Shown in pieces: positions 4,725-55,761 of a stretch of DNA of 64,000 bases (positions within the stretch are counted from its first letter, which is position 1; each line of letters starts with the position of its first letter). Made by a program: the position numbers and the translations under genes. The stretch is from an uncultured Eubacteriales bacterium. Its GTDB lineage: Bacteria; Bacillota; Clostridia; Oscillospirales; Oscillospiraceae. The notes beneath the pieces are model-generated. The model ran no database searches and was not told the DNA's origin. It saw nothing but the letters and a program-made list of their open reading frames with translations. Where the stretch lies: contig ONEB01000005.1 in NCBI GenBank assembly GCA_900316745.1, positions 1 through 64,000 of the forward strand, in the 5' to 3' direction.

Positions 4725-4823
4725 TCCCCGGTCGCGTCCGCTGTGCCGGACGGAGGCATGCGCGGGGCTTTTTGCCGCGCTGTGCCGTCGGATCGAATTT
4801 CCCCCTTCTCGGAGGTGTATGTT

Positions 4824-6458
4824 TTGAAAGAAATCATGGATGCCGCGTCATTTAAGGAAATGTTTTTGTGTGCCAACGCGGCGCTGGAAGAGAATAAGCA
4901 GATCATCAACGATCTGAACGTGTTCCCCGTCCCCGACGGCGACACCGGCACCAACATGAGTCTGACGATGAACTCCGCCGCCATTGCGCTGCGGCAGGAG
5001 AGCTTTGACGAGATCGGCAAGGCCTCGAAGTGCGCGGCCAACGCCCTGCTGCGCGGCGCGCGCGGCAACTCGGGCGTCATCCTCTCGCTGCTGTTCCGCG
5101 GCATTTCCAAGTCCCTCAAGGGCAAGGTGACCGCCGACGCGCCGGAGTTTGCCGCCGCACTCACCGCGGGCGTCGAGGCCGCCTACAAGGCCGTCATGAA
5201 GCCCGCCGAGGGCACGATCCTCACCGTCAGCCGCGTGGCAGCCGCCGCCGCAGTGGAATTTGCCAAGGACAACGCCGACATCGAGCTCATGTTCGACTGC
5301 CTGCTCTCCGCCGCGAAGACCGCGCTGGCAGAGACGATCCACCAGAACCCCGTTCTGGAGCGCGCGGGCGTCGTGGACGCCGGCGGTCAGGGCTTTGTCG
5401 TCGTCATGGACGCGATGCTCGCCTGGCTGCAGGGCCGCGCCGTCGCGCCCGTGGAGGCAAAGCTCCCCGAGCAGGAGCAGAAGGCCGCCGCGGACTTCTC
5501 GGAGTTTGACACCGGCGACATTCACTTTGCCTACTGCACCGAATTCATCGCAGCGCGCGAGAGCCAGAAGAGCCCGGAGCTGCTGCGCTCGTTCCTCGAA
5601 AACATCGGCGACTGCGTTGTCGTCGTGTCCGACGAGGAGATCGTAAAGGTCCACGTCCACACGAACGTCCCCGGCGAGGTGCTCACCGAGGCGCTCACCT
5701 ACGGCCCGCTTCAGACCGTGAAGATCGAGAACATGCGCAACCAGCACACCGAGCTCTCCAAGGATCCCGAGCCCGAAGCGCCCAAGGTCGCCCCGGCTGA
5801 AAAGCCCTACGGCATCGTGACCGTGTGCGCGGGCGACGGCATGACCGAGATCTTCCGCGAGCTCGGCGCAGACCGCGTCGTGACCGGCGGCCAGACCATG
5901 AACCCCTCCACGGACGACATTCTCCGCGAGATCGACCAGACCCCGGCCGAGACCGTTTTCGTCCTGCCGAACAACAAGAACATCGTCATGGCGGCCGAGC
6001 AGTGCGCGCGCTTCACAGAGAAGAACGTCGTCGTCGTGCCGACCAAGACCGTGCCGCAGGGCATCGCAGCGCTCCTCACCTTTGACGACAGCGCAGACGC
6101 TGAAACCATCAGCGCGAACTTTATGGAGGCTGCCAAGGCTGTCCACACCGTCGCGATCACTTATGCCGCGCGCGATTCGGACTTTGACGGTCACGACATC
6201 CACGCGGGCGAATATCTCGCCCTGCTCGACGGCGCGCTCATCGGCAACTACACCGACTTCCCCACCCTGCTGCAGAGCGTGGTGGAGGCTGCCGAGTCTC
6301 TGGAGCCGGAGATCATCTCCGTCTACTATGGCGAGGACGTGAAAGAAAGCGAGGCGCAGGACACCGGCGTCTCTCTCGAGACGGCGTTCCCCGACGCCGA
6401 CGTCAACGTCATCAACGGCGGTCAGCCCGTGTACTACTACATGATCTCTCTCGAGTAA
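4824..6458 (+). CDS. fakA: FakA/YloV-type DAK-domain fatty acid kinase
   Basis: A 544-residue DAK-domain kinase. It has the nucleotide-binding signature LNVFPVPDGDTGTNMSLTM near residue 32, GARGNSGVILS near residue 75, a middle DAK domain with the DAGGQGF motif, and a C-terminal region with PNNKNIVMAAEQ. In characterised Firmicutes FakA phosphorylates fatty acids carried by FakB for phospholipid synthesis; no FakB (DegV) gene is in the window. The start is probably the TTG at 4824: a perfect GGAGG (4811-4815) lies 8 bases before it, and the product then begins KEIMDAASFKEMF like its relatives. The next in-frame ATG, at 4836, is 20 bases from the ribosome site. The gene ends in a strong terminator. 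Confidence 0.92.
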   Translation: MKEIMDAASFKEMFLCANAALEENKQIINDLNVFPVPDGDTGTNMSLTMNSAAIALRQESFDEIGKASKCAANALLRGARGNSGVILSLLFRGISKSLKGKVTADAPEFAAALTAGVEAAYKAVMKPAEGTILTVSRVAAAAAVEFAKDNADIELMFDCLLSAAKTALAETIHQNPVLERAGVVDAGGQGFVVVMDAMLAWLQGRAVAPVEAKLPEQEQKAAADFSEFDTGDIHFAYCTEFIAARESQKSPELLRSFLENIGDCVVVVSDEEIVKVHVHTNVPGEVLTEALTYGPLQTVKIENMRNQHTELSKDPEPEAPKVAPAEKPYGIVTVCAGDGMTEIFRELGADRVVTGGQTMNPSTDDILREIDQTPAETVFVLPNNKNIVMAAEQCARFTEKNVVVVPTKTVPQGIAALLTFDDSADAETISANFMEAAKAVHTVAITYAARDSDFDGHDIHAGEYLALLDGALIGNYTDFPTLLQSVVEAAESLEPEIISVYYGEDVKESEAQDTGVSLETAFPDADVNVINGGQPVYYYMISLE

Positions 6459-6464
6459 TATATC

Positions 6465-6505
6465 AGCGGCTGTGAGGATGCCTTGTCTCTCACAGCCGCT
6501 TTTTT
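6465..6505 (+). terminator. Terminator of yloU-fakA
   Basis: A perfect 12-bp stem, AGCGGCTGTGAG with CTCACAGCCGCT, followed by six T residues, starts 6 bases after the fakA stop. Confidence 0.9.
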
Positions 6506-6529
6506 CGCAAGCAAAGGATTTGATATATT

Positions 6530-7297
6530 ATGTCAACCGCAAGCATTCAGGAGGCGCTCTCCTCCGCCCGGCTGGAGCAGCTGCAAAAGGACAATCCTTT
6601 CATCCACATCACGGACGCAGTCTATGAGATTCTGGAGGAGGCCATCCTCTCGTCCCGTCTCGATCCGGGCGCGAAGCTGCGCATCAACACGATCGCCGAC
6701 ACGCTGGGCGTGTCCGGCACGCCGGTGCGCGAGGCCATGGAGCGCCTGATCTTGCGCGGTCTCGTGGTGGAACGCATCGACCCGGGCCGCAAATACCGCA
6801 GCTACACCGTGTTCGATATCGAGGATGCGGACATCGAGCAGCTGTTCGTGGCGCGCAAGAGCATCGACGCCACCGCCGCCTATATCTGCGCGCAGAAAAA
6901 CTGGCGCGTCGACATTGAAAAGCTGGAGTACCACGCGGCGCGGTTTCAGACGGCTATGACAGATTATGTAAATGGGCGCACCTCCTATCCCGACGCGCAG
7001 GCCGACCGGCAGCTGCATGTCGAGCTTGTCAACGCCGCAGGCAACCGATACCTGAGCGAAATGTACCGCTCGATTGAGAAAAAGCTCAACTATCTCGCCG
7101 TGCGCACCTGTGAGTTTCTCGCGCTGGCGCAGACGCGCGACGATATGCGTCTGCTGTGCAACCAGCACGACGCCGTGATCAACGCCATCCGCATGGGCTT
7201 TCCGCAGCTGGCGCAGACCGCCATGGCAGAGCATGTGGATTTCTGTGAAGAAAACTGCCTGAATTACCGCAATATTGCAAAGCTCAGGAAGCAATAA
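6530..7297 (+). CDS. GntR/FadR-family regulator (FCD domain)
   Basis: A 255-residue transcription factor. Residues ~25-95 form a GntR winged helix-turn-helix (AILSSRLDPGAKLRINTIA, then GVSGTPVREAMERL and LRGLVVER). Residues ~105-240 are an all-helical FCD ligand-binding domain with the conserved D/E, H and H positions (ADRQLHVELV, CNQHDAVINAI, AMAEHVDFC). FCD regulators usually sense small organic acids such as pyruvate, lactate or sugar acids. It lies 191 bases upstream of PFOR copy 2 on the same strand, so control of that gene is a reasonable inference. The ribosome site is weak and the start codon overlaps a TATATTATG stretch. It has its own terminator. Confidence 0.9.
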   Translation: MSTASIQEALSSARLEQLQKDNPFIHITDAVYEILEEAILSSRLDPGAKLRINTIADTLGVSGTPVREAMERLILRGLVVERIDPGRKYRSYTVFDIEDADIEQLFVARKSIDATAAYICAQKNWRVDIEKLEYHAARFQTAMTDYVNGRTSYPDAQADRQLHVELVNAAGNRYLSEMYRSIEKKLNYLAVRTCEFLALAQTRDDMRLLCNQHDAVINAIRMGFPQLAQTAMAEHVDFCEENCLNYRNIAKLRKQ

Positions 7298-7320
7298 TTC
7301 CCGCGATCGCTCTATAATTT

Positions 7321-7362
7321 ATTCCGCAGAAGATGAATTCCATCATTTTCTGCGGAATTTTT
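7321..7362 (+). terminator. Terminator of the GntR gene
   Basis: A long stem, ATTCCGCAGAA pairing with TTCTGCGGAAT, with an inner GATG/CATC pair and a run of T at the end. Confidence 0.85.
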
Positions 7363-7411
7363 ATCTGTTTTGGCACAAATCTGCCGGAGTGCGAATGTCA
7401 TTCAGTCAAAT

Positions 7412-7441
7412 TAGACAATATGATGCGGCCTATGCTAAAAT
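7412..7441 (+). promoter_or_regulatory. Extended -10 promoter of PFOR copy 2
   Basis: TAGACA (7412-7417), 18 bases, then TGC-TAAAAT (-10 at 7436-7441, extended by TG). Transcription would start near 7448, about 40 bases before the PFOR ATG, which has AGGAGG 8 bases upstream. Confidence 0.7.
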
Positions 7442-7488
7442 TCTGTCAGTAATAATGCACAACAGCATTCTTTTAGGAGGTTATTTCA

Positions 7489-10400
7489 ATGGCCAAGAAC
7501 AAAGTATTCAAGTCGATGGACGGCAACGAGGCCGCTGCCTACGCGGCGTATGCCTTTACCGAAGTCGGCGCCATGTACCCGATCACCCCGTCGAGCCCGA
7601 TGGCGGATCACACCGACCAGTGGGCGGCGCAGGGCAAGAAAAACATCTTCGGGATGCCCGTGAAGCTCGTGGAGATGCAGGCGGAGGCCGGCGCATGCGG
7701 CACGCTGCAGGGCATTCTGGAGGCCGGCTCTCTCGGCGCGACCTACACCGCGTCTCAGGGCCTGATGCTGATGATCCCGCCGATGTACCGCATCGCGGGT
7801 CTGCAGCTCCCCGCTGTCATGCACGTCGCGTCCCGTACGCTCGGCACCCACGCGGTGTCCATCTTCGGTGACCACCAGGACGTCATGGCCTGCCGCCAGA
7901 CCGGCTGGGCGCAGCTCGCCAGCGCCAGCGTGCAGGAGTGCATGGATCTCGCCGCCGTCGCGCATCTGAGCGCCATCAAGGGCAAAGTTCCCGTGCAGCA
8001 TTTCTTCGACGGCTTCCGCACCAGCCATGAGATCCAGAAGATCGAGGTGCTCGACTACGAGGATCTGAAAAACCTCGTCGATATGGACGCCATCGACGCC
8101 TTCCGCGCCCGCGCCCTGAACCCCGAGCATCCCACCATCCGCAACGCCGTGGAGAACGACGACGCTCTGTTCCAGCACCGCGAGGCCAGCAACCCCGTCT
8201 ATGACGCTTTCCCGGCGATCGTGGAGGAGAAGATGCAGGCGATCAACGCCCTTACCGGCCGCAACTATCAGCTCTTCAACTACTACGGCGCGCCCGACGC
8301 AGAGCGCATCATCATTGCCATGGGTTCTGTCTGCGAGACGCTGCAGGAGGTCGTGGAATACCTCAACGCGCACGGCGAGAAGGTCGGCGCGGTGCAGGTG
8401 CACCTCTACCGTCCGTTCTCGGCAAAGCACCTGCTCGCCGCCATCCCGGAGACGGTCAAGTGCATCAGCGTTCTGGACCGCACGAAGGAGCCCGGCTCCC
8501 TCGGCGAGCCGCTCTATGAGGACGTCTGCGCCGCGATCATGGAGTCCGGCCGCGCGATGAAGGTGCTCGGCGGTCGCTACGGTCTGAGCTCCAAGGACAC
8601 CACCCCCGCCCAGATGAAGGCCGTGTTCGACAACATGACTGGCGAGCAGAAGAACCACTTCACCGTCGGCATCGTGGACGATGTGACACATCACTCCCTG
8701 CCCGTGGGCGAGAACATCGTCACCGCCGGCAAGAGCATCATCTCCTGCAAGTTCTGGGGTCTCGGCGCGGACGGCACCGTCGGTGCGAACAAGAACTCCT
8801 GCAAGATCATCGGCGACAACACCGACCAGTATGTGCAGGCCTACTTCCAGTATGACTCCAAGAAGTCCGGCGGCGTGACCCGCAGCCACCTGCGCTTCGG
8901 TCACGAGCCGATCCACAGCACCTACTATGTCACGATGGCAGACTTCCTCGCCTGCCACAACCAGAGCTACATCTCCCGCTACGATATGGTCAGCGAGATT
9001 AAGCCCGGCGGCACGTTCCTGCTGAACACCCGCTGGAGCGGCGAAGAGCTGGAGCAGCACCTGCCGAACCGTGCCAAGCGCATCCTCGCCGAGCGCGGCA
9101 TCAAGTTCTACACGATTGACGCCACCGACATCGCCGAGCAGATCGGACTGGGCAACCGCACCAGCACCGTCCTGCAGGCCGCGTTCTTCAAGCTCTCCGG
9201 CGTGCTCCCGATCGACGAGGCCGAAAAGCACATGAAGGACGCCGCCGTCAAGAGCTTCTCCAAGAAGGGCGAGAAGGTCGTCAAGATGAACCATCAGGCG
9301 ATTGAGGCCGGTCTGAACGCCGTTGTCGAAGTGCCCGTGAAGCCCGAGTGGAAGGATCTCAAGGACGAGGAGACCGTCGTGGACGGCAGCCTGCCCGAGT
9401 ACATCCGCGAGCTGCTGATCCCCATGAACGCCACCAAGGGCGACGACGTCCCCGTGAGCAAGTTCGTGCCGTATTCCGACGGCGTGCTGCCCATCGGCTC
9501 CGCCGCCTTCGAAAAGCGAGGCGTTGCCTCCAACGTCCCCGTCTGGGATATCGACAAGTGCATCGGCTGCAACAAGTGCTCGCTCGTCTGCCCGCACGCG
9601 GCGATCCGCCCGTTCCTGTTCAATGAAGAAGAAGCCGCTGCTGCTCCCTGCGCCACCAAGGAGGCCAAGGGCAAGGGCTTTGAAGGCCTGCGCTTCCGCA
9701 TCCAGGTCGACGTGCTGGACTGCCAGGGCTGCTCCAGCTGCGTGAACGTCTGCCCGGTGAACGCGCTGAGCATGGTGCACCTGGACGACCAGCTCGACGA
9801 GCAGAAGAACTGGGATCACTGCCTCACGCTCTCCGAGAAGACCAATCCCATGAGCAAGTTCTCCTCCAGAGGCAGCCAGTACGAGCAGCCTCTGTACGAG
9901 TTCTCCGGCGCCTGCCCCGGCTGCGGCGAGACGCCTTACATCAAGCTCCTGACCCAGCTCTTCGGCGACCGCATGTATGTCGCCAACGCCACGGGATGCT
10001 CCCAGGCCGTGGGCTTTGCAATTCCGGCATTCCCGCAGACCACGAACAAGCGCGGCTGGGGCCCGGCGTTCTCCAACTCCCTGTTTGAGAACAACGCCGA
10101 GTTCGCGCTGGGCATGAGCCTCTCCACCGAGCAGCTGCGCGCGCAGCTGAAGCTGCACGCCGAGGCCGCCATCGCCGAGACTGCGGACGAGAATCTGAAA
10201 GCCGCGCTTCAGGCATGGCTCGCCGACGGCGACTCCGAGGAGAAGACCGTCGAGGTCTCTGACCGCGTGCGTGACGCCCTCGAGGCAAACAGCGAGTCCG
10301 GCACGGAGGTCACCTACGTCCGCAAGCACACCGACACGCTCACGAAGAAATCCATCTGGATGTACGGCGGCGACGGCTGGGCATACGACATCGGCTTCGG

Positions 10401-11010
10401 CGGTCTGGATCACGTCCTCGCCTCCGGTGCGAACGTGAACGTTCTCGTCGTGGACACCGAGGTCTATTCCAACACCGGCGGTCAGGCCTCCAAGGCCACC
10501 CCGATCGGCGCCTCCGCGCAGTTCGCGGCAGCCGGCAAGACGACGCCGAAGAAGGATCTGGGCATGATGCTCGCCACCTACGGCTACATCTATGTCGCGC
10601 ACGTCTCCCTCGGCGCGAACCCCGAGCACCTCATCAAGTGCATGAAGGAAGCCGCCGCTTATGACGGCCCGTCCATCATCATCGCCTACGCGCCCTGCAT
10701 CAACCACGGCGTCGTCAAGGGCATGGGCAAGAGCATCGAGGAAGAAAAGCTCGCCGTCGAGTGCGGCTACTGGCCGCTGTTCCGGTACAATCCGGATCTC
10801 GCCAAGGAGGGCAAGAACCCGTTCCTGCTCGACTCGAAGGAGCCCAACGGCAAGCTGCGCGAGTACATGATGGGCGAAAACCGCTTCGCGGGTCTCGTCC
10901 GCACGTTCCCGGAGATCGCCGAAAAGCTCTTTGCCGAGGCAGAGGAGCAATGCGCTTCCCGCTTCGAGGGCTACAAGAAGATGGCAAACGATCCGACCTA
11001 CGAGAAATAA
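7489..11010 (+). CDS. nifJ: Pyruvate:ferredoxin oxidoreductase, copy 2
   Basis: A 1173-residue complete PFOR, close to the usual family length. It shows YPITPSSPMAD near residue 26, the double ferredoxin motif CIGCNKCSLVCP and CQGCSSCVNVCP, proximal-cluster cysteines in CPGCGET and NATGCS, and the TPP site GGDGWAYDIGFGG with DTEVYSNTGGQ. It is clearly homologous to copy 1 at 386-4045 along its whole length but is shorter in the linker before the final TPP segment and lacks the CTCGAC insertion there. It has its own promoter, an excellent ribosome site (AGGAGG, 7475-7480) and a terminator, so it is a single-gene unit directly behind a GntR/FCD regulator. Different regulation of the two copies is inferred. 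Confidence 0.96.
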   Translation: MAKNKVFKSMDGNEAAAYAAYAFTEVGAMYPITPSSPMADHTDQWAAQGKKNIFGMPVKLVEMQAEAGACGTLQGILEAGSLGATYTASQGLMLMIPPMYRIAGLQLPAVMHVASRTLGTHAVSIFGDHQDVMACRQTGWAQLASASVQECMDLAAVAHLSAIKGKVPVQHFFDGFRTSHEIQKIEVLDYEDLKNLVDMDAIDAFRARALNPEHPTIRNAVENDDALFQHREASNPVYDAFPAIVEEKMQAINALTGRNYQLFNYYGAPDAERIIIAMGSVCETLQEVVEYLNAHGEKVGAVQVHLYRPFSAKHLLAAIPETVKCISVLDRTKEPGSLGEPLYEDVCAAIMESGRAMKVLGGRYGLSSKDTTPAQMKAVFDNMTGEQKNHFTVGIVDDVTHHSLPVGENIVTAGKSIISCKFWGLGADGTVGANKNSCKIIGDNTDQYVQAYFQYDSKKSGGVTRSHLRFGHEPIHSTYYVTMADFLACHNQSYISRYDMVSEIKPGGTFLLNTRWSGEELEQHLPNRAKRILAERGIKFYTIDATDIAEQIGLGNRTSTVLQAAFFKLSGVLPIDEAEKHMKDAAVKSFSKKGEKVVKMNHQAIEAGLNAVVEVPVKPEWKDLKDEETVVDGSLPEYIRELLIPMNATKGDDVPVSKFVPYSDGVLPIGSAAFEKRGVASNVPVWDIDKCIGCNKCSLVCPHAAIRPFLFNEEEAAAAPCATKEAKGKGFEGLRFRIQVDVLDCQGCSSCVNVCPVNALSMVHLDDQLDEQKNWDHCLTLSEKTNPMSKFSSRGSQYEQPLYEFSGACPGCGETPYIKLLTQLFGDRMYVANATGCSQAVGFAIPAFPQTTNKRGWGPAFSNSLFENNAEFALGMSLSTEQLRAQLKLHAEAAIAETADENLKAALQAWLADGDSEEKTVEVSDRVRDALEANSESGTEVTYVRKHTDTLTKKSIWMYGGDGWAYDIGFGGLDHVLASGANVNVLVVDTEVYSNTGGQASKATPIGASAQFAAAGKTTPKKDLGMMLATYGYIYVAHVSLGANPEHLIKCMKEAAAYDGPSIIIAYAPCINHGVVKGMGKSIEEEKLAVECGYWPLFRYNPDLAKEGKNPFLLDSKEPNGKLREYMMGENRFAGLVRTFPEIAEKLFAEAEEQCASRFEGYKKMANDPTYEK

Positions 11011-11024
11011 GCCAAACAAACCCA

Positions 11025-11060
11025 AACCGGGGCTGCCGTCTGGCAGCCCCGGTTGTTATT
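11025..11060 (+). terminator. Terminator of PFOR copy 2
   Basis: A perfect 13-bp stem, AACCGGGGCTGCC with GGCAGCCCCGGTT, around a 4-base loop. The T tract after it is interrupted (GTTGTTATT). Confidence 0.75.
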
Positions 11061-11110
11061 ATCCGCAAACGCACGGATAGTTTACATAATTTTGTTATAG
11101 TATATTTATG

Positions 11111-11773
11111 TCACTCTTCCAGCAAATCCTCCAGATACGCCCTGAGGGTGGCCTCCTGCATGGCGCCGATCTGCTGGGCGGCAAGCGTGCCGTCCGGGCG
11201 GACGAAGATCGTGACCGGAATGGAATAGATCTGATACGCATTGGCGGCGGAAGCGGTCGTATCGTAGTACACAGGGAACTGAAATCCCTGCTCGGTGACG
11301 AAGACCTTGACGCCGGGCATCGTCTCGCGGTTCCCGTCGGTGAGATCCACCATCATGAACTGGATCCGGTCGCCGTACTCGGCATACAGGCTATCAAACG
11401 CCGGGAGCTCCGAGCGGCACGGCGGGCACCACGACGCCCAGAAATTCACCACCACGGGCTTGCCCGCAAAGTCGGAGAGTTTCGTGATGCTCCCCTGCCC
11501 GTTATCGACCGCAAAGTCCGGCGCGAGATCGGACGCTGTCTCCGGCGCGGCGGATTCGGTCGGGACGCCGGCGTCGATGGGCACGGTGCTCTCCTCCGGC
11601 GCGGCGGTCTCGCGCTCAGTCGAGGGCGTCGTCGTCTCCTGCGCCGCGGCGGGCTCCTTCGCGCCGTCCCGCGCATCATAGCGCACGGCGAGACGCGGAT
11701 ACAGCAGCGCCGCCGCCGCGATCAAGATGACCAGCGCGACCGCCGGAACGAGCCATCTCAAAGCTTTGTTCAT
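11111..11773 (-). CDS. TlpA-like membrane-anchored thioredoxin
   Basis: A 220-residue thiol-disulfide oxidoreductase. Residues ~8-26 form a membrane anchor without a lipobox. Residues ~35-85 are a low-complexity linker rich in Ala, Pro, Thr and Glu. The rest is a TlpA/ResA-type thioredoxin domain with WASWCPPCRSELP (redox pair CPPC) and the cis-proline segment IYSIPVTIFV. Such proteins act outside the membrane and keep thiols of target proteins reduced. The start at 11773 has GAGGTGATGAT before it. It lies 20 bases downstream of the CcdA gene, whose product normally supplies electrons to this class, so the two form a working pair. Confidence 0.93.
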   Translation of the reverse strand: MNKALRWLVPAVALVILIAAAALLYPRLAVRYDARDGAKEPAAAQETTTPSTERETAAPEESTVPIDAGVPTESAAPETASDLAPDFAVDNGQGSITKLSDFAGKPVVVNFWASWCPPCRSELPAFDSLYAEYGDRIQFMMVDLTDGNRETMPGVKVFVTEQGFQFPVYYDTTASAANAYQIYSIPVTIFVRPDGTLAAQQIGAMQEATLRAYLEDLLEE

Positions 11774-11793
11774 ATCATCACCTCAAAGCACTT

Positions 11794-27970: not shown

Positions 27971-28278
27971 TGCTTCCTTTCACAGCTGACATCAACAAGG
28001 GCGTCGAGGAATGCCTCGCCACACCCGGCGCGATCCTGCTGGACGTGCGCACACCGGAGGAACATGCCGCAGGACACATCCCCGGCAGCATCAGCATCCC
28101 GCTCGCGGCGCTGCCCGCCCGCTGCAGCGAGCTCGGAGACCTTGACACCCCGATCTATGTCCACTGTCTCTCCGGCGGGCGCAGCGGACAGGCCGTGCGC
28201 TTTCTCAAGGGCGCAGGCTACACGAACGTGAAAAACATCGGCGGCATCAACGCCTGGACCGGAAAGGTGGAGAAATAA
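27970..28278 (+). CDS. Single-domain rhodanese
   Basis: A 102-residue rhodanese (sulfurtransferase). LLDVRTPEEHAAGHIPGSISIPL near residue 23 and the active-site loop VHCLSGGRSGQA, with catalytic Cys near residue 66, are complete. It would move sulfane sulfur between thiols. The start codon overlaps the thioredoxin stop by one base (TGATG), and the following flavoprotein ATG comes directly after its TAA, so the three are translationally coupled. Confidence 0.95.
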   Translation: MLPFTADINKGVEECLATPGAILLDVRTPEEHAAGHIPGSISIPLAALPARCSELGDLDTPIYVHCLSGGRSGQAVRFLKGAGYTNVKNIGGINAWTGKVEK

Positions 28279-29970
28279 ATGAAAGTCGTCATCGTGGGCG
28301 GCGTTGCCGGCGGCGCGACCGCTGCGGCGCGCATCCGCAGGCTGGACGAGCAGGCTGAGATCACAGTCTTTGAGCGCTCGGGCTATGTCTCCTATGCAAA
28401 CTGCGGACTGCCGTATTTCATCGGCGATGTGATCACAGATCCGGAGGAGCTGACGCTTCAGACGCCGGAATCGTTCTATGAGCGTTTCCGCGTGCAGATG
28501 AAAGTGCGCCACGAGGTGACGGCGATCCTCCCGGAGAAAAAAAGCGTGCGCGTCAAAAGCCTCGAGACCGGCGAGGAATTTGAGGAGTCTTATGACAAGC
28601 TCCTGCTCTCCCCCGGCGCGCGCCCGACACAGCCGCGCCTGCAGGGCACGGACTTAGACCGCGTGTTCACCCTCCGCACCGTGGAGGATACGATGCGGAT
28701 CAAAGATTATGTAAACCAGAAAAAGCCCCGCTCCGCGGTGCTGGCGGGCGGCGGCTTCATCAGTCTGGAGCTGGCGGAAAATCTGCGGCACCTGGGGCTG
28801 GACGTGACGATCGTGCAGCGCCCGATGCAGCTGATGAACCCCTTTGACGCCGACATGGCGGCGTTCATCCACGCTGAAATGCGAAAGGGCGGCGTGCATC
28901 TCGCGCTGGGACAGACCGTCGATGGATTCGTCGAAGCGGACGGCGGCGTGGATGTGCTGCTCAGGGACGCCCCTCCCCTGCACGCCGACATGGTGGTGCT
29001 CGCCATCGGCGTGACGCCCGACACGGCGCTGGCAAAGGACGCGGGGCTGGAGCTCGGACTCAAGGGCGCGATCCTCGTCAACGACCGCATGGAGACCTCC
29101 GTGCCGGACATTTACGCCGTGGGCGACGCGGTGCAGGTGCGCCATCTCGTCACCGGCGCGGACAGCGTCATCTCCCTTGCCGGCCCTGCGAACAAGCAGG
29201 GGCGCATCGCGGCCGACAACATCTGCGGGCGCGACAGCCGGTACCCCGGCTCGCTCGGCAGCAGCGTCATCAAGCTCTTCGATCTCACGGCGGCGAGCAC
29301 CGGCGTGAATGAGACGAACGCCAAAAAGGCGGGGCTGGACGCGGACAAGCTCTTCCTCTCCCCGATGAACCACGCGGGCTACTACCCCGGCGGCGAGACG
29401 ATGACGATGAAGATCGTCTTTGAAAAAGAGACGTGGCGGCTGCTCGGCGCGCAGATCGTGGGCGGCGCGGGCGTCGATAAGCGCATCGACGTGCTCGCGA
29501 CGGCGATCCAGAACCGCATGGACGTGCGCGACCTGCAAACGCTCCAGCTGGCCTACGCCCCGCCCTACGGCTCTGCCAAGGACGCCGTGAACATGGCGGG
29601 CTATATGGCGGAGAATCTCTCCGACGGCATCGTGAAGCAGTTTCACTGGCACGATGTGGACAATCTTCCCCGCGACGGCAGCGTGGTGATCCTCGATGTG
29701 CGGACGCCGGGTGAATTCCGGCGCGGGCACTTCGACGGCGCCGTGAACATTCCCGTGGACGAGCTGCGTGAGCGGATGGATGAAATTGAGCGCGGTAAGC
29801 CGCTTTATGTAAACTGCCAGAGCGCCCTGCGCAGCTATATTGCCTGCCGCATTCTCTCGCAGAACGGCTTTGACTGTTATAATCTCGCCGGCGGGTACCG
29901 TCTGTACGACGTCGTCATGCGCGACGCCGAGGCCAAGAAAACCGCCCTCCCCTGTGGCCTTGAGCCGTGA
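28279..29970 (+). CDS. CoA-disulfide reductase with C-terminal rhodanese domain
   Basis: A 563-residue FAD/NAD(P)H-dependent disulfide reductase of the CoADR-RHD class. FAD loop VIVGGVAGGATAAARIRR at the start, redox Cys in SYANCGLPYFIGD near residue 43, NAD(P)H loop VLAGGGFISLELAENL near residue 155, FAD motif VPDIYAVGDAV near residue 274, and a rhodanese domain at ~460-550 (ILDVRTPGEFRRGHFDGAVNIP) with active-site Cys in VNCQSALRSY. Characterised members reduce CoA disulfide, CoA persulfide or polysulfide. It forms one operon with thioredoxin and a separate rhodanese, which suggests a sulfane-sulfur or disulfide-stress role. Confidence 0.93.
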   Translation: MKVVIVGGVAGGATAAARIRRLDEQAEITVFERSGYVSYANCGLPYFIGDVITDPEELTLQTPESFYERFRVQMKVRHEVTAILPEKKSVRVKSLETGEEFEESYDKLLLSPGARPTQPRLQGTDLDRVFTLRTVEDTMRIKDYVNQKKPRSAVLAGGGFISLELAENLRHLGLDVTIVQRPMQLMNPFDADMAAFIHAEMRKGGVHLALGQTVDGFVEADGGVDVLLRDAPPLHADMVVLAIGVTPDTALAKDAGLELGLKGAILVNDRMETSVPDIYAVGDAVQVRHLVTGADSVISLAGPANKQGRIAADNICGRDSRYPGSLGSSVIKLFDLTAASTGVNETNAKKAGLDADKLFLSPMNHAGYYPGGETMTMKIVFEKETWRLLGAQIVGGAGVDKRIDVLATAIQNRMDVRDLQTLQLAYAPPYGSAKDAVNMAGYMAENLSDGIVKQFHWHDVDNLPRDGSVVILDVRTPGEFRRGHFDGAVNIPVDELRERMDEIERGKPLYVNCQSALRSYIACRILSQNGFDCYNLAGGYRLYDVVMRDAEAKKTALPCGLEP

Positions 29971-48617: not shown

Positions 48618-48983
48618 TTACATGACCGTGTATCCCTCTGAAGCCAGCACGGCCAGCGCTCTTTCAAGGTTTTCTTCCTTTACAAGAATATAATCGGTGT
48701 TGAACGTTGACACCGCGAAGATCCCGATCCCATGATCTGCGAGGATGCCGGACAGCCTGGATAAGATCCCGATCAGGGAGAAATCCAGGACGCCCTGAAT
48801 GCGAAAGCCTCTCCATCCGTCGTCGCGTTCGATCGTTTTTCCCGGTGCGTCTTCCGTCCTGCATACCAGTGACAGTTCCTCGTCCGTTTTGCCGATGAAA
48901 TAAAAATCGGCGCTCAGGTCGGCAGCATCGAGCTCCGCGACCTTGCAGATGGTCAGATGCCAGGGGATTATCTTCAGTTCCAT
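48618..48983 (-). CDS. ACT-domain protein
   Basis: A 121-residue protein with two ACT-like units. The first ~55 residues (KIIPWHLTICKV, DFYFIGKTDEELSLVCRTED) and the second (GVLDFSLIGILSRLSGILADHGIGIFAVSTFNTDYILVKEENLERALAVLASEGY) match the CASTOR/ACT_7 type of small two-ACT proteins. ACT units bind amino acids or other small ligands. Its start overlaps the end of the HxlR gene by 10 bases. It is the last gene of the run that begins with the TerB-domain protein and stops at the terminator at 48560-48590. Confidence 0.88.
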   Translation of the reverse strand: MELKIIPWHLTICKVAELDAADLSADFYFIGKTDEELSLVCRTEDAPGKTIERDDGWRGFRIQGVLDFSLIGILSRLSGILADHGIGIFAVSTFNTDYILVKEENLERALAVLASEGYTVM

Positions 48984-49375
48984 GCCTGATTGCCTCCGCC
49001 GTAGAGCTCCTTTTCATGCCGGAAGCCCCAGTTCATGATGGCGTAGAACACGGGCAGCAGATCGCGGCCCATCTCCGTCAGGGAATACTCCACATGGGGC
49101 GGGATCTCGTTGAACTGCTCCCGGCTGATGAGCCCGTCCTCCTCCAGTTCCCGCAGCGCTTTGGTGAGCATGGTGTTCGTGATGCCGGGAAGATCCTTTT
49201 TAAGCTGTCCGAAGCGCACCGTGTCATAGATGCACATCTCATACATCACCTGCGACTTCCACCTCCCCTGCAGCATGACCAGAAGCGGCGTGACGGGGCA
49301 GTTGCCGTCTCGCGTGACGATGCCGCTTTTCAGATTCGCCAGATAGTCCTCATAGCTCATGAATTCACGCTTCAT
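48974..49375 (-). CDS. HxlR-family transcription regulator
   Basis: A 133-residue winged-helix regulator of the HxlR/YodB family. The signature is CPVTPLLVMLQGRWKSQVMYEMCIYDTVRFGQLKKDLPGITNTMLTKALRELEEDGLISREQFNEIPPHVEYSLTEMGRDLLPVF. The conserved N-terminal Cys (residue ~26, NCPVT) used for thiol or quinone sensing in YodB-like proteins is present. Its ATG lies inside the last codons of the helicase gene (11-base overlap) with GGAGGGGA 5 bases upstream, and its end overlaps the ACT gene. Whether it controls this operon is unknown. Confidence 0.92.
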   Translation of the reverse strand: MKREFMSYEDYLANLKSGIVTRDGNCPVTPLLVMLQGRWKSQVMYEMCIYDTVRFGQLKKDLPGITNTMLTKALRELEEDGLISREQFNEIPPHVEYSLTEMGRDLLPVFYAIMNWGFRHEKELYGGGNQAWN

Positions 49376-51617
49376 CCTGATCCCCTCCGAATTTCCTCCA
49401 GCTCAGCACGCGCCGGCGCATCTGCTCAAAATCCAGCACCCCATAGGCAAAGCCCTTGCGCACGAGCTCCGGGGGCACATATTCATCGTACTTTTCAAAC
49501 ACCGGAACTTCTTTTTCATATACCAGCTCCAGCGCGTCGAAGTCCTGCTCCGCTTCCTCGCAGACGATTTCGTAAAACTCCGCCTCGCTCACCTGCATGG
49601 TGAACTGCATGTAGTACGGGCGGGAGGACTGCAGCCCTTTCAGCCCCAGTCTCTGTCCGCAGCGGAGTTTTAAAAAGCGCTCCATGGCGAGAAAGGCATA
49701 GGAGCCTACCCACGGAAACAGCGCCCACATTTTACCGCCCAGAGAAACAAGCGGCCGCTCCGCCATGCGGGACTTGCGGAAGGTCTCACGGGCATCCGCC
49801 AAACGGCAGACGGCATGGGGCATCAGATAGGGATAGCGCTTGTCCTCACTGAGCACCCGGTACATCCGCTCGAGGATGCGGGTGTGGATATCGCCCGCCA
49901 CATCGCCGAAGTAGGCCGGGATGTTCCCCTTGACCAGCGTGCAGAACACCTCGCGCCGCTTGTGATCCACCTCTTCCACGACCCAGACGCGGCCGGCGAT
50001 GGCGATCTTGTCCCCGACGGGAGGGGGCTTCACGATGGTGCCGAGCTGCTCTGAGCCGGAGCGCACGGTGTATTCGACGTTCTCCTGAAACACGGCGTAG
50101 AATTTATAGTTGTTCACGACGCGCTCGCCGGCGAGGCCGAGGATCAGGCCGCCATTTTCCGTGCGCATCACATGGTCGATCTCGAGCAAATGCCGCAGCA
50201 GCAGCCGGTAATCCTCCTGCGTGATCCGGTGAAAGCAGCTTAAGCCGAGCACGCGGGAGGCAAGCTCGCCCGGCGTCATCTCGCCGTGGGAGGCGAGCGT
50301 ACTCATGGTCTGGTGATACAGCAGGCTGTAAGGCAGCCGGTCCATGCGCGGCGGCTCCACGAAGCGCTCCTCGATATAGAGCTGCACCAGCGCGATCCCC
50401 TGAATGAGATACCACGGGATGCTGTCCGGCAGCATGGCGCGCGCCTCCTGATGATCCTCCCGCATGACGAACCACATCTCCGAGGGATCGCCCCGCCGCC
50501 CGGTGCGCCCCATGCGCTGCAGGAAGCCCGAGACCGTGAACGGCGCGTCGATCTGGAACGCGCGCTCGAGCTGTCCGACGTCGATGCCGAGCTCCAGCGT
50601 CGCTGTGGCGCAGACCGACATCAGGGAATCGTCGTCCTTCATCTCCTCCTCGGCGCTCTCGCGGTACGAAGCGGAGAGATTGCCGTGGTGAATGAGGAAG
50701 CGGTCGGGCTCGTGATTCACCTCGCAGTACTGCCGCAGGCTCTGGCACACCGACTCGCATTCCTCGCGGGAGTTTGTGAACACGAGGCACTTTTTGCCCC
50801 GGGTATGCTCGAAGATATAGCCGATGCCGGGATCGGCGGCCTTGGGCGCGGCGTCCGTGGGCGCTTCCAGAGGCGGGGCGTCCTGCACGGGAGCTCTGCC
50901 CTCGTCCGCCTGCGGCGCGGTGTTGTAAAAGTGCTCCATGCTGAGCCGCCAGACCTCTTTGCCGCCGTCGAACTTCGGGATGATCGTGCCGCGACCGCTG
51001 CCCGCCGCGAGAAACTGCCCGGCAAGCTCCGGGTTTCCGATGGTTGCCGAGAGTCCGATCCGGCGCGGGTCGCAGCCGGCGAGCTTACACAGCCGCTCAA
51101 TGAGGCAGAAGGTCTGCAGGCCCCGATCCGCCCGCAAAAGGGAGTGGATCTCGTCGATGACGATGAACCGCAGGTCGCCGAACAGGGACGGAATCTCCAT
51201 GTGCTTGTTGATCATCAGCGATTCCAGCGACTCGGGCGTGATCTGCAGGATGCCGGAGGGCTTTTTGAGAAGCTTTCGCTTTCTCGACTGCGCGGCGTCC
51301 CCGTGCCAGCGCGTGACGGCGATGCCTTCCTCCTCGCAAAGCTCATTTAAGCGCCCGAACTGGTCGTTGATGAGTGCCTTCAGCGGCGCGATATACAGTA
51401 CGCCGACCGTCTTCGAGGGGTCCTCCTCCAGCAGCGTGAGGATCGGAAAGAAGGCGGCCTCGGTCTTTCCCGACGCCGTGGAGGCGGTCAGGAGCACATT
51501 TTCATCGGTGTTGAAGATCGCGTCACCGGCGGCGTTCTGCACCGCGCGCAGGCTCTGCCAGCCGGAACGGAAAATATAGTCCTGAATAAACGGCGCGTAA
51601 CGCTCAAACACATTCAT
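49365..51617 (-). CDS. Lhr/BrxHI-like superfamily 2 helicase
   Basis: A 750-residue DEAD/DEAH-box helicase. Walker A is TASTASGKTE (residues 44-53), Walker B DEIH (155-158), motif III LSATIGN, then a second RecA domain with CLVFTNSREECE, ELGIDVGQLERAFQID and QRMGRTGRRG, followed by a ~350-residue C-terminal region with winged-helix-like parts. It resembles the Lhr-like helicase BrxHI of type 2 BREX islands more than full-length Lhr (about 1,500 residues). It probably moves along and unwinds DNA. Its ATG overlaps the stop of the BrxD-like ATPase gene (ATGA), so the two are translated together. Confidence 0.9.
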   Translation of the reverse strand: MNVFERYAPFIQDYIFRSGWQSLRAVQNAAGDAIFNTDENVLLTASTASGKTEAAFFPILTLLEEDPSKTVGVLYIAPLKALINDQFGRLNELCEEEGIAVTRWHGDAAQSRKRKLLKKPSGILQITPESLESLMINKHMEIPSLFGDLRFIVIDEIHSLLRADRGLQTFCLIERLCKLAGCDPRRIGLSATIGNPELAGQFLAAGSGRGTIIPKFDGGKEVWRLSMEHFYNTAPQADEGRAPVQDAPPLEAPTDAAPKAADPGIGYIFEHTRGKKCLVFTNSREECESVCQSLRQYCEVNHEPDRFLIHHGNLSASYRESAEEEMKDDDSLMSVCATATLELGIDVGQLERAFQIDAPFTVSGFLQRMGRTGRRGDPSEMWFVMREDHQEARAMLPDSIPWYLIQGIALVQLYIEERFVEPPRMDRLPYSLLYHQTMSTLASHGEMTPGELASRVLGLSCFHRITQEDYRLLLRHLLEIDHVMRTENGGLILGLAGERVVNNYKFYAVFQENVEYTVRSGSEQLGTIVKPPPVGDKIAIAGRVWVVEEVDHKRREVFCTLVKGNIPAYFGDVAGDIHTRILERMYRVLSEDKRYPYLMPHAVCRLADARETFRKSRMAERPLVSLGGKMWALFPWVGSYAFLAMERFLKLRCGQRLGLKGLQSSRPYYMQFTMQVSEAEFYEIVCEEAEQDFDALELVYEKEVPVFEKYDEYVPPELVRKGFAYGVLDFEQMRRRVLSWRKFGGDQDEA

Positions 51618-52942
51618 ATCGTAAACTCCACATAGCCCGCTTCGGTCTCGTCCGAAACGGCCTCCGATTTTGCGTAGCTGAATTCCTCGGACTCCAGAAG
51701 CGCCTCGATGCGCATGCCCGGGTTCTGATACAGCAAATCGAGCAGCTCGATAAAATCCCGGATGACCTCGCGCGGGGTGATGTTCTGATCCGCGCCGATG
51801 CGCCCGTACTCGATCTTGATAAAGGTGACGAGATCCTCCGTCGTGACGCTGCGCTGATAGCCGTAGAGCCCCGCGTGCATCTCGGCGAGCTTCTCGCAGA
51901 GCACCAGCATCTCCTCGGCGGTCAGCGGCTCGAGCCGGATCACCGGCGCGAGCAGGTCTCTTGCGCCGGGCTTGGAAAAGCGCCCCTCCGCGAGCCGGGA
52001 TCGCAGCGCCTCGTAGCTGTAAATGCCGCGCCGCTTGTCCTCCAGCGCCTGGGGCGTCGCGCCCATGATGATGCCGAGGTATTTCGCCTTGCCTTGCAGC
52101 GTGTCGTTATACATGGTGAGCATCTTCTCGTAGTTATACTGCCGGGTGATCGCGTTCGGGATCTTGTAGATATTCACAAGCTCGTCGACCATGATCATCA
52201 TGCCCGCATAGCCCGCGAGCCGGAAGAACGTGGCAAAGAGCTTCAGATAGTCATACCAGTCGTCGTCCGTGATGATGATGTTGACGCCGAGCGCCTCCTT
52301 CGCCTCGCGCTTGAGCGCGTATTCGCCCCGGAACCAGCGCACGACCCTGGCCTTGGTCTCGTCGTCGCCGCTGACGTAGGCATGATAATAGGCGGAGAGG
52401 AGTCTGCCGAACTCGAAGCCGTGCACCATCTCGCTGACCGAGGCCGTGACGGCATAGATCTTCTTATCCGTCGCGGCGGCGAGCGCGGGATCGTCCGGCG
52501 TGAGGCCGGTCTCCTGCATGGCCTCGCTCTGCACGGCGCTGATCCACCGGTCCAGCACCAGCGTGAGCGCGCCGCCCTCGGGCTTCGTCTTCGTGGAGAG
52601 GTTGGAAATCAGCTCCCGGTAGGTCGCAAGCCCCTGTCCCCGCGTGCCCTGCAGGCGCCGCTCCGGGGAGAGATCCGCGTCCGCCACGATGAAGCCGCGA
52701 TCCATCACATAGTTGCGGATCGTCTGCAGCAGGAAGCTCTTGCCGCTGCCGTAGCGCCCGACGATGAAGCGGAAGGACGCGCCGCCCTCGGCGATGATGT
52801 CCACATCGTGCAGCAGCGCCTCGATCTCGTTTTTCCGGCCCACCGTGATATACGGCAGACCGATGCGCGGCACCACGCCGCCCTTGAGCGAGTTCAGGAC
52901 CGTCTGCGCGATCCGCTTCGGTACTTTCTTATGTTCAACCAT
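51614..52942 (-). CDS. BrxD-like P-loop ATPase (DUF2791)
   Basis: A 442-residue ATPase of the BrxD/DUF2791 type. The Walker A loop is GRYGSGKSF (residues 62-70), followed by the family's FIVADADLSPERRL; Walker B is MIMVDELVNIYK with Asp253-Glu254; and TMYNDTLQGKAKYLGIIMGATPQALEDKRRGIYSYEALRSRLAEGR is a hallmark stretch. BrxD is known from BREX phage-defence islands, where it stands next to the BrxHI helicase, as here. The start at 52942 has GGAGG 8 bases upstream and lies 8 bases inside the TerB gene. The rest of BREX is not in the window. Confidence 0.88.
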   Translation of the reverse strand: MVEHKKVPKRIAQTVLNSLKGGVVPRIGLPYITVGRKNEIEALLHDVDIIAEGGASFRFIVGRYGSGKSFLLQTIRNYVMDRGFIVADADLSPERRLQGTRGQGLATYRELISNLSTKTKPEGGALTLVLDRWISAVQSEAMQETGLTPDDPALAAATDKKIYAVTASVSEMVHGFEFGRLLSAYYHAYVSGDDETKARVVRWFRGEYALKREAKEALGVNIIITDDDWYDYLKLFATFFRLAGYAGMMIMVDELVNIYKIPNAITRQYNYEKMLTMYNDTLQGKAKYLGIIMGATPQALEDKRRGIYSYEALRSRLAEGRFSKPGARDLLAPVIRLEPLTAEEMLVLCEKLAEMHAGLYGYQRSVTTEDLVTFIKIEYGRIGADQNITPREVIRDFIELLDLLYQNPGMRIEALLESEEFSYAKSEAVSDETEAGYVEFTI

Positions 52943-54758
52943 TGTTTGTTCCTCCAAGGTAGTGCTCAATCTCTTCTGCATAGTCCTCCACAAGGGCGAG
53001 CGCGTCACCCTCACAGAGCAGCACCGTATCGCCGATCTCGTCAAAAAGCGCCTCGTTGATGGCATCTGCCACGACAGACGGCATCAGATGATGGGTCCGG
53101 ATGATTTCCGTTGCGTCCCCGTCCTTCAGCAGGGTCCGGATAATCTGAATCTGTACGGCATCCAGCGGAAGATCGCTTGTTTCGTCCTCTGCTGCGGGCG
53201 GGATTTCTTCTTCGATATCCTCGATTTCCTCCTCGGTCAGGAGGCTCTCCCGCGTCGTCACCGCATCCCGGCGGATCCGCTCCAGTCCGGAGAGGTCGAT
53301 CGTGATCATCGGCCGTGCCGCTTCGATCTCGGCCTTTCTGTCCGCCTCGATGACGGCGTCGATATACGGTCTCGCCCATTCGTCGGCAGGGTTTTCCCGG
53401 AGATACCGCCCGGTTTTCAGATACCGGCGCAGGCGGGCGTCCGTCTCGTGCAGGAAGCCCTGCAGGCGGGCGCGGTCGAACGACGGCTTTTCATAGGCCT
53501 CCACCTGCCACGCGCCGCCGCTGCAATGGTAGCTGCGGCACGCGCTGAGTACGTAGTCCCGGCTCGCGCTTCTTGTTTTCTGATCATAGACGGCGCTCGT
53601 GAGCGGATACCACGCCCGGCGCTGCCTTTCGCCGAAGCAGAGCGTGAACAGATCCTTTCCCTGCCAGCGATACACAGAGGCGGCGCGCCACGCGTCGCTG
53701 AAGAGCCGTTGTCCCCGCCCGGGGTCCTTTGTCAGTACGGGAGAGCCCTCCGTCTTTTTTCCGCCCAAGAAGCAGAGCGCCGAGAACACTTCCTCATCGG
53801 AGTGCTCCTCCGGTGCGTGAAGCGTCATAAGCGCCGCGTCCTGCTCCATCAGCTCCGGGTCAGCGGCCTGCGCCGCAAGCGCCTGCGGCAGATCGTGCAG
53901 GACGGCAAATTCCAGCATCCACCGGCGCAGATTTTTGCGCATGCGCGTATCACCGAATCCGGCGTCGAGATACGCGGTCATAAATTCCCGCATCTTTTGC
54001 AGGCACGCCTCCGGCGTGTCCGCTCCCACGCCGTTTAAGAGCTCATAGATATAGAGATACGCGGCGGAGGTCGGGATCGGCTGCACATCGCCCCGGCGCA
54101 GACGGGCGCGCCACGTGAAGTAGCCGCGCAGCTGCCGCGTGTTCATGTCGTGATAGGTCGGGTAGTAGTGGTCGAAGCTGCCCTCCCACGGCACATCGTC
54201 CTCATAGTCCTGCATCAGCACGGCCTGCCGACAGAAGTTTCTGGCTCTGGACTCCACGGATTCCCTGCCGTATTCATACAGGCGCTTCATTTCGCGCAGG
54301 CGCTCGGGAATCTGCTCCCTGGGCGGGCGGTAGGTGCTCCCTGAAAAGGGCAGCGCCGTATCCTGATACCCGCCCTCATCGGACTTCAGCGCAGAGCCGA
54401 GCACGATCTGATAGCCGCTCGGATTGCCGGACGCGATCGCCTGATCGAACAGCCGGAAGACGATCTCGCGCTCCGTCCGCTCGTCGAAGGTGACTCCGAT
54501 CCACCGACTCCCGCGCATGCGCAGCGGCTGTGTGAGATAGTCTCGCCGAAAGCGCATGAGACTGTCGCGGCCGCACTTTAGGTCGCAGCGCTCGATCTCC
54601 GTGCCGGTCTCGCCGTCCCACTGCCGCATCAGCAGCGCGACCCATTTGCCGGTCTGCGGGTGGCACAGCACGGAAAAGCCCGGAAAGTCCGCCCATTTAT
54701 GCTGTTCCTCCAGCTGATATTGTTCTCTGGCATAGTCCGTCAGCTCCGCCAAAAGCAT
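52935..54758 (-). CDS. TerB-N/TerB-C domain protein with MmcQ-like N-terminus
   Basis: A 607-residue cytoplasmic protein. Residues ~14-112 (EQHKWADFPGFSVLCHPQTGKWVALLM, CDLKCGRDSL, WIGVTFDERTEREIV) resemble the MmcQ/YjbR double-wing fold. Residues ~145-300 are TerB-N (YEYGRESVESRARNFCRQAVLMQDYEDDVPW, YHDMNTRQLRGYFTWRARLRRGDVQPIPTSAAYLYIYELLNGVG). Residues ~535-605 are TerB-C (LDAVQIQIIRTLLKDGDATEII, LMPSVVADAINEALFDEIGDTVLL). An acidic stretch (EEEIEDIEEEIPPAAEDE) precedes TerB-C. TerB-N and TerB-C proteins are tied by comparative genomics to stress and DNA-processing systems. GGAGGTG precedes the start. First gene of the run. Confidence 0.82.
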   Translation of the reverse strand: MLLAELTDYAREQYQLEEQHKWADFPGFSVLCHPQTGKWVALLMRQWDGETGTEIERCDLKCGRDSLMRFRRDYLTQPLRMRGSRWIGVTFDERTEREIVFRLFDQAIASGNPSGYQIVLGSALKSDEGGYQDTALPFSGSTYRPPREQIPERLREMKRLYEYGRESVESRARNFCRQAVLMQDYEDDVPWEGSFDHYYPTYHDMNTRQLRGYFTWRARLRRGDVQPIPTSAAYLYIYELLNGVGADTPEACLQKMREFMTAYLDAGFGDTRMRKNLRRWMLEFAVLHDLPQALAAQAADPELMEQDAALMTLHAPEEHSDEEVFSALCFLGGKKTEGSPVLTKDPGRGQRLFSDAWRAASVYRWQGKDLFTLCFGERQRRAWYPLTSAVYDQKTRSASRDYVLSACRSYHCSGGAWQVEAYEKPSFDRARLQGFLHETDARLRRYLKTGRYLRENPADEWARPYIDAVIEADRKAEIEAARPMITIDLSGLERIRRDAVTTRESLLTEEEIEDIEEEIPPAAEDETSDLPLDAVQIQIIRTLLKDGDATEIIRTHHLMPSVVADAINEALFDEIGDTVLLCEGDALALVEDYAEEIEHYLGGTNNG

Positions 54759-54799
54759 CCCGACACCTCCCGTCCGTCGTGTTTCGTTTAAGTATCTTT

Positions 54800-54827
54800 A
54801 TTATACTATATCTTTTTTTGAAATCAA
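54800..54827 (-). promoter_or_regulatory. Promoter of the TerB-BrxD-BrxHI operon
   Basis: On the minus strand TTGATT (54822-54827), 16 bases, a perfect TATAAT (54800-54805), in an AT-rich tract. No other good promoter is seen down to 48618. Confidence 0.7.
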
Positions 54828-54845
54828 GTACGCAGAATCATCATA

Positions 54846-54869
54846 CCTGGTACGCTTTTTGATACCAGG
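54846..54869. repeat. Inverted repeat upstream of the TerB promoter
   Basis: CCTGGTA-N10-TACCAGG, 7 bp per arm, 19 bases upstream of the -35 box. It is a candidate binding site for a regulator of the operon. Confidence 0.35.
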
Positions 54870-54908: not shown

Positions 54909-54959
54909 GCTCCCGCCGTGCGTGACAGATCTTTTCTCACTGTCATGCGCGGCGGGAGC
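54909..54959 (-). terminator. Long hairpin after the XRE-zinc ribbon gene
   Basis: A 20-bp stem (GCTCCCGCCGTGCGTGACAG with CTGTCATGCGCGGCGGGAGC; two G-T pairs) around an 11-base loop. It follows the minus-strand XRE gene and lacks a clear T run, so it may be a terminator or an RNA-stabilising structure. Confidence 0.55.
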
Positions 54960-54996
54960 TTTGCATATCAAAGAATGATGAAATGGTAAATCAGGT

Positions 54997-55761
54997 TTAT
55001 CTCTTCTTATAGAGCACGAGCTCCGGATCGGCGCCCTCCGGCCCATAGGTGCAGATCAGGATGAAGTCCATGTTCGCAAGGACGCCGAAGCACCGCTCGC
55101 CGCCCAGCTCCGACTGCAGCTGATTGCCGAGATAGGTCGTCTGATCATCCAGAAATTTCACGCAGGTGCCATTGGGAAGCCGATACGCAAGGTTTACATA
55201 ACTTCCAACCAGTGCATTCAGTTTTTCCAGACGCGGCATGCCCTCAATGCGCAGATCGTTGATCTCACGGATCAGCTGCTGCTTGAATGCCTCGAACTCG
55301 CCGCCGTCGCTGAGCTCGTCATACCGTTTCCAGTAGTCCAGCGTCGGCAGCAGCTGCTGCATGTAGGCGCGTGCCTGCTGCTCGGAAAAGCCGTCGCGCG
55401 CCATGTGCCCGACACTGACGTCGATCAGATCATCCATGCTGCTGTATGTGTAGGTTCCGTCCGCATAGCACCATTTGCAGTAGTCCTCATTGAGTGCGCC
55501 GTCGGCGTCTCTGCTGATGATTGCGTCCTCCAGCGGCATGCCGCAGCATTGGCAGATCAGCTTGCGCGGCTCTCCGAGCAGCGTATTGATCGACACATCG
55601 AACAGCCGGGAAAGCAGCTTCAGCGTGTCGGTGTTCGGCACCGTCTCCCCGTTCTCCCAGCGCGACACGGCCTGCCGCGTCACGAAGACCTTTTCCGCGA
55701 GCTCATCCTGAGAAAGCCCCTTTTTCGTTCTGAGTTCCAGCAAGATGTCTTTTGTATTCAT
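54997..55761 (-). CDS. XRE-family regulator with zinc ribbon
   Basis: A 254-residue protein. Residues 5-62 are an XRE helix-turn-helix (LRTKKGLSQDELAEKVFVTRQAVSRWENGETVPNTDTLKLLSRLFDVSINTLLG). Residues 70-98 are a zinc ribbon with C70-x2-C73 and C95-x2-C98. Residues ~105-165 form a helical part (VGHMARDGFSEQQARAYMQQLLPTLDYWKRYDEL) of the kind seen with Zn_ribbon_2. The last ~70 residues (NALVGSYVNLAYRLPNGTCVKFLDDQTTYLGNQLQSELGGERC) are a further domain I do not recognise. Its effector is unknown; it is a candidate controller of the TerB operon downstream or of the flavoprotein genes upstream. Confidence 0.88.
   Translation of the reverse strand: MNTKDILLELRTKKGLSQDELAEKVFVTRQAVSRWENGETVPNTDTLKLLSRLFDVSINTLLGEPRKLICQCCGMPLEDAIISRDADGALNEDYCKWCYADGTYTYSSMDDLIDVSVGHMARDGFSEQQARAYMQQLLPTLDYWKRYDELSDGGEFEAFKQQLIREINDLRIEGMPRLEKLNALVGSYVNLAYRLPNGTCVKFLDDQTTYLGNQLQSELGGERCFGVLANMDFILICTYGPEGADPELVLYKKR

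Follow-up and report, generated by a model that had tools for sequence, protein, structure and literature searches.

Three overlapping genes of the window (the whole stretch of 64,000 nucleotides analysed, from contig ONEB01000005.1 of an uncultured Eubacteriales bacterium) form an intact variant of the known system Shango (SngA-SngB-SngC) and are not an orphan piece of BREX. The trio is read as a horizontally moving Shango operon, sngA-sngB-sngC, with an HxlR-family gene of its own in fourth place. The probability of this identity together with an anti-phage role is roughly 0.8. Shango is a three-gene anti-phage system tested in E. coli and P. aeruginosa PAO1, and it was also found independently in E. 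coli, where effects of about 10-fold were seen with two phages (PMC10250203). Its anti-phage effects are modest (10-100 fold) and absent for some phages (PMC10250203). A 2026 review lists the mechanism of Shango as unknown (PMC12926258). By analogy with these other Shango systems (PMC10250203), the trio of the window would be active against phages.

Identity of the three genes

Between 54758 and 48618, the minus strand carries five overlapping genes:

52935..54758, minus strand: sngA, 607 aa; YjbR/MmcQ-like domain (residues 1-112), TerB_N (145-342) and TerB_C (471-598), the last ending in a winged helix
51614..52942, minus strand: sngB, 442 aa; AAA+ ATPase (ORC/Cdc6-like, BrxC/BrxD family), with Walker A GRYGSGKS (62) and DELVN (253) present
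49365..51617, minus strand: sngC, 750 aa; SF2 helicase, BrxHI/Lhr-like, with DEIH (155), SAT (190) and QRMGRTGR (367) present
48974..49375 (alternative start 49360), minus strand: HxlR-family regulator gene (PF01638, 1e-27), the fourth gene of the operon in the window's clade
48618..48983, minus strand: ACT-domain protein gene (PF13840, 5.1e-21), overlapping the HxlR gene

The first three genes are adjacent and co-directional in the order A-B-C, with overlaps of 8 and 4 bases. Domains and overlaps confirm the TerB-type, BrxD-type and BrxHI/Lhr-type genes of the preliminary description, with the start of the ATPase gene corrected to 52942, which is the start used in relatives according to their alignment.

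All three genes are matched by PADLOC Shango models across the greater part of their extent. SngA matches the PADLOC SngA model PDLC03958 (5.9e-76, residues 47-599). SngB matches the SngB model PDLC03959 at 1.2e-191 (636 bits) versus 2.2e-48 (164 bits) for BrxD, and Pfam PF10923 at 1.3e-170. SngC matches the SngC model PDLC03960 at 8.9e-283 (938 bits) versus 2.2e-127 (424 bits) for BrxHI. The kinship with BrxD and BrxHI proposed earlier is thus real, and ranks behind the Shango models. SngB scores 164.4 bits where the NCBIfam BrxD equivalog cut-off is 350 bits, and SngC scores 205.2 bits where the cut-off of TIGR04121 (ligase-associated DEXH repair helicase) is 850 bits. Among Pfam and PADLOC models, no nuclease domain is recognised in SngA, SngB, or SngC of the window. 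In a published helicase phylogeny, SngC groups with BrxHI, DruE, and DpdJ (PMC12278908).

The name Shango is also reached by an independent route. For plasmid 4 of Sulfitobacter faviae SCSIO W1865, Shango is reported at 1-2544, 2522-3829, and 3835-6012 (PMC10221251). In NZ_CP116427, a TerB_N protein, an ATP-binding protein, and a DEAD/DEAH helicase are encoded exactly at these coordinates, and they match the same PADLOC SngA, SngB, and SngC models as the window trio, which ties the latter to the published system. The closest known systems are Shango of P. aeruginosa PA14, E. coli, and S. faviae plasmid 4, the last of which was compared directly; the three gene families, their order, and their overlaps are those of the window trio. 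It differs from published Shango in having the HxlR gene as an extra fourth gene together with a promoter motif.

The preliminary description had guessed at a stand-alone DNA-processing or defence system, and this part of its interpretation stands. It did not recognise Shango, however, and missed the HxlR gene as the fourth gene. Its statement that no experimental role was known is wrong, considering the phage tests in E. coli and P. aeruginosa PAO1 (PMC10250203), and with it goes the hope of a defence system without experimental record.

SngB-SngC and the BrxD-BrxHI pair of type-2 BREX are homologous, each consisting of an ATPase and a helicase encoded by tightly linked genes, and for BrxD-BrxHI a loader-helicase relation has been proposed (PMC12839542). 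This homology would fit a remnant or reduced BREX, in which BrxD and BrxHI persist after loss of PglX, PglZ, and BrxC or work with BREX genes elsewhere in the genome. PglZ is found above cut-off somewhere in 5 of 20 genomes carrying related Shango loci. None of the five adjoins Shango, however: in four it is on a different contig or at different coordinates, and in G469 it is more than 300 kb apart. Unlike type-2 BREX, the window locus has an SngA gene, and the BrxD equivalog cut-off is missed. In the draft genome (92.5% complete), BrxC is not found, SngB being the sole PF10923 protein. No true PglZ is found there either, and the single sub-threshold match is a phosphoglycerate mutase. The absence of BrxC and PglZ noted earlier is therefore borne out, and the draft genome offers no PglZ just outside the window; the presence of one there had been named as fatal to a stand-alone system. 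With the Shango models winning by the bit scores given above and neither BrxC nor PglZ found, a BREX remnant is hardly credible and was rejected.

Distribution and genomic setting

SngA is patchily present. Counting the genome of the window itself in every case, SngA occurs in 1 of 10 genus genomes (that of the window), in 9 of 60 relatives, and in 22 of 398 genomes from the phylum. Individual absences within the genus carry little weight, as completeness is only 57-83% for several of its genomes. A housekeeping locus present everywhere, which the preliminary description had set against its own reading, was rejected on these counts.

The 80 loci used as relatives are the best among at least 586 candidate stretches. 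Among these best 80, SngA is found in 79, SngB in all 80, and SngC in 72. Of the eight without SngC, five end no more than 145 bases from sngB and two some 1 kb from it; in L127, 6 kb of sequence contain no SngC. L018 (8340-11473) has SngA and SngB without SngC, and the genes that follow look unrelated. SngB of the same best 80 is 72-93% identical to that of the window and comes with labels of eight phyla (63 Bacillota, 15 from seven other phyla, and 2 unlabelled). On the tree the phylum labels are mixed, an indication of transfer between phyla; some of them, however, belong to metagenome bins and may be binning errors. Among 72,556 plasmid records, 691 have an SngB relative (all less than 60% identical), and 542 of them are called conjugative. 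These plasmid relatives include 449 Klebsiella and 144 Salmonella records. No SngB relative is found in 50,697 phage records.

Within 6 kb of the 80 loci, the HxlR gene is the only convincing conserved neighbour. An ABC-ATPase cluster is near the trio in 12 loci, on either side, and looks like chance. The ACT-domain gene is found in none of the best 80 of at least 586 loci; it was rejected as a component of the system and is a downstream passenger. Other neighbours are confined to a few loci. A protein starting MHDIWNPWHGC, which we take to resemble the phage Gp37/Gp68 (DUF5131) family, is encoded within 6 kb downstream of the trio in 6 of the 80 loci (L052, L057, L061, L079, L101, and L104). 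A 1661-aa protein with PADLOC PDC-S37 and REase_MTES_1575 matches is encoded directly behind sngC in L017 (14017-19000) and is a candidate nuclease companion. In L023 (S. faviae, 6015-11778), genes for a PD-(D/E)XK nuclease and a UvrD-type helicase are found close behind sngC, the nuclease being a possible partner.

A helix-turn-helix (HTH)/zinc-ribbon gene is located upstream of sngA. Three congeners have this gene (83-87% identical to the window's copy) and lack SngA. In all three, similarity to the window ends at 54994-54997. On the other side of the gene, similarity is collinear almost to the ends of the contigs, interrupted by gaps of 0.4-3.4 kb. The left flanks of the three congeners match neither each other nor the part of the window beside the HTH/zinc-ribbon gene; that of L050 matches window positions 27984-29968, inverted. 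Left of this gene, gene content thus differs in each of four genomes of the genus, which fits a variable junction and gives no dated insertion; no clean empty site was found in the three congeners compared. One further feature was read from the sequence upstream of sngA:

54909..54960, no strand assigned: inverted repeat rich in G+C, with the HTH/zinc-ribbon gene on one side and the sngA promoter on the other; possible terminator of that gene, absent from the terminator scan output

Architecture of SngA

SngA is far less conserved than its partners. In 61 loci, the median identity is 46.7% for SngA, 83.4% for SngB, and 83.0% for SngC. The PF05099 TerB domain, which is listed for Shango (PMC10952713), is undetected in SngA of the window, in all 65 aligned SngA, and in 16 of 16 further SngA from Paenibacillus and the window's phylum. 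It is present in 6 of 7 SngA from other phyla, one of these (L160) slightly below the Pfam cut-off. When the proteins are compared directly, SngA of S. faviae is composed of TerB_N, TerB, and TerB_C, whereas SngA of the window begins with a YjbR head, and a PF05099 core is not detected in it. The PADLOC SngA model accepts SngA with and without PF05099, so the window protein is treated as a variant. Its activity might differ from that of the annotated S. faviae SngA, considering this difference.

The YjbR/MmcQ domain (PF04237) scores 16.8 bits in SngA of the window, below the Pfam cut-off of 30.1, and 16 of the 65 aligned members match it at E 0.05. The window protein conforms to the CyaY-like double-wing fold expected of a YjbR/MmcQ domain. 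Fusions of MmcQ/YjbR domains are described in the open-licence PMC literature, with no tie to Shango found there. Judging from sequence, SngA with a YjbR head and no detectable TerB core appears to be a trait of a mobile gut Shango clade, new or little noticed. It suggests that TerB is inessential to the architecture, which limits models of TerB metal sensing.

SngA ORFs of other forms exist. In L148, L150, and L151, an N-terminal TM2 (membrane) domain replaces YjbR, possibly giving a membrane-bound Shango. On two Enterobacterales plasmids, L048 and L163, the ORF of sngA has only 521 aa and a transposase gene is upstream of it; the L163 ORF, when scanned, contains only the end of TerB_N, below cut-off.

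The HxlR gene, its promoter, and a possible mode of action

The HxlR gene is found directly behind sngC in 9 of the 80 relatives (best 80 of at least 586), at 82-93% identity to that of the window. HxlR proteins from 11 other loci of the genus are 35-40% identical to it. Its nearest NCBIfam models are the redox regulators RrpA/RrpB, matched below their cut-offs. Members of the HxlR family respond to redox and electrophile signals. Upstream of sngA, the conserved block in HxlR-bearing loci and a promoter scan give the following elements:

54792..54868, minus strand: proposed promoter and putative HxlR operator
54847-54868, minus strand: palindrome CTGGTA-N10-TACCAG, part of the proposed operator
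54823-54833, minus strand: core motif GCGTACTTGAT, overlapping the -35 box TTGATT
54792-54806, minus strand: GTATAATAAAGATAC, over the -10 box

In HxlR-bearing loci, this block of about 75 bases is kept in otherwise unlike DNA and has a GGTAT...TACC repeat, TGCGTACTTGAT over the -35 box, and a GTA...TAC repeat over the -10 box. With one mismatch allowed, the core GCGTACTTGAT is found near sngA in the window and in all eight relatives with HxlR whose sequence extends upstream of sngA; that of the ninth, L085, starts within this gene. The motif was scored in 58 of 69 tree rows; excluded were rows that lacked SngA or had too little DNA upstream or downstream, as well as 12 loci off the tree. All 9 scored loci that carry HxlR, the window among them, have the motif, against 0 of the 49 that do not carry HxlR. 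Weak similarity is kept in the -35/-10 part of the HxlR-less L057, L055, and L080. The window's genome contains one exact match to the core and likewise one to a backward-read control; the single match to the core therefore proves nothing by itself. On three to four independent events, the HxlR gene appears to be part of the operon in the window's clade, together with a promoter element, an arrangement that is new or little noticed. No paper on HxlR together with Shango was found in the open-licence PMC literature, where the sole mention of HxlR in a paper that also deals with anti-phage defence systems concerns a prophage insertion site.

The gene and the motif may merely be inherited together in one young lineage, with HxlR not regulating Shango. 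The independent pairs of HxlR and motif all agree but are few, three on well-supported branches and four on all branches, too few for a formal test, which needs six or more. L052, moreover, has a second strong motif (1e-12) before a run of esterase, AMP-ligase, GNAT, and radical-SAM genes just upstream of sngA (L052:3392-7021). This co-inheritance is nevertheless distinctly unlikely. HxlR-bearing loci do not form one clade, as HxlR presence changes five times on the best tree and at least three changes are forced by well-supported branches, and the block is retained amid unlike upstream DNA and overlaps the -35 box. As the second motif of L052 lies before metabolic genes, HxlR may control more than Shango. 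Such a site would also suit a chromosomal module of DNA repair or stress under HxlR control, with SngA as a sensor of damage or of metal/redox stress and host DNA processed by SngB-SngC, as would the relation of SngC to Lhr-like helicases and the sub-threshold resemblance of HxlR to RrpA/RrpB. Against such a module are the patchy presence of the locus, the phyla mixed on its tree, the many plasmid copies, and the low conservation of SngA relative to its partners. Also against it, phage defence has been demonstrated for the Shango family (PMC10250203). A repair or stress role is improbable.

As for anti-phage Shango, SngA would act as an adaptor on the DNA side, carrying a YjbR domain of double-wing type at one terminus and a winged helix at the opposite one, and would recognise phage DNA or the state of phage replication. 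SngB, the ORC/Cdc6-like AAA+ ATPase, would then load or activate the SngC helicase on phage DNA. SngC would disturb replication of this DNA or deliver it to nucleases of the host. With no recognised nuclease domain in SngA, SngB, or SngC, other enzymes would have to carry out any degradation. That protection is seen at many phage doses speaks against simple cell suicide. This order of events is plausible, at slightly less than even odds. HxlR would bind the operator over the -35 box, hold the operon low, and release it on a redox or electrophile signal. Because the proposed site overlaps the -35 box, HxlR most likely represses, and repression of the Shango operon is considered probable. The nature of the signal, a redox or electrophile change, is more tentative.

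It is conceivable, though on balance doubtful, that a Shango sub-type carried between phyla in animal guts became inducible. Its own HxlR would repress the promoter and sense a redox or electrophile change linked to infection, and the TerB core of SngA would have been replaced by a YjbR DNA-binding head, moving target sensing to direct DNA contact. If true, this would be a defence armed by the state of the cell. The regulator gene and the defined promoter element give a direct handle on the signal that arms Shango and may show how the system switches on.
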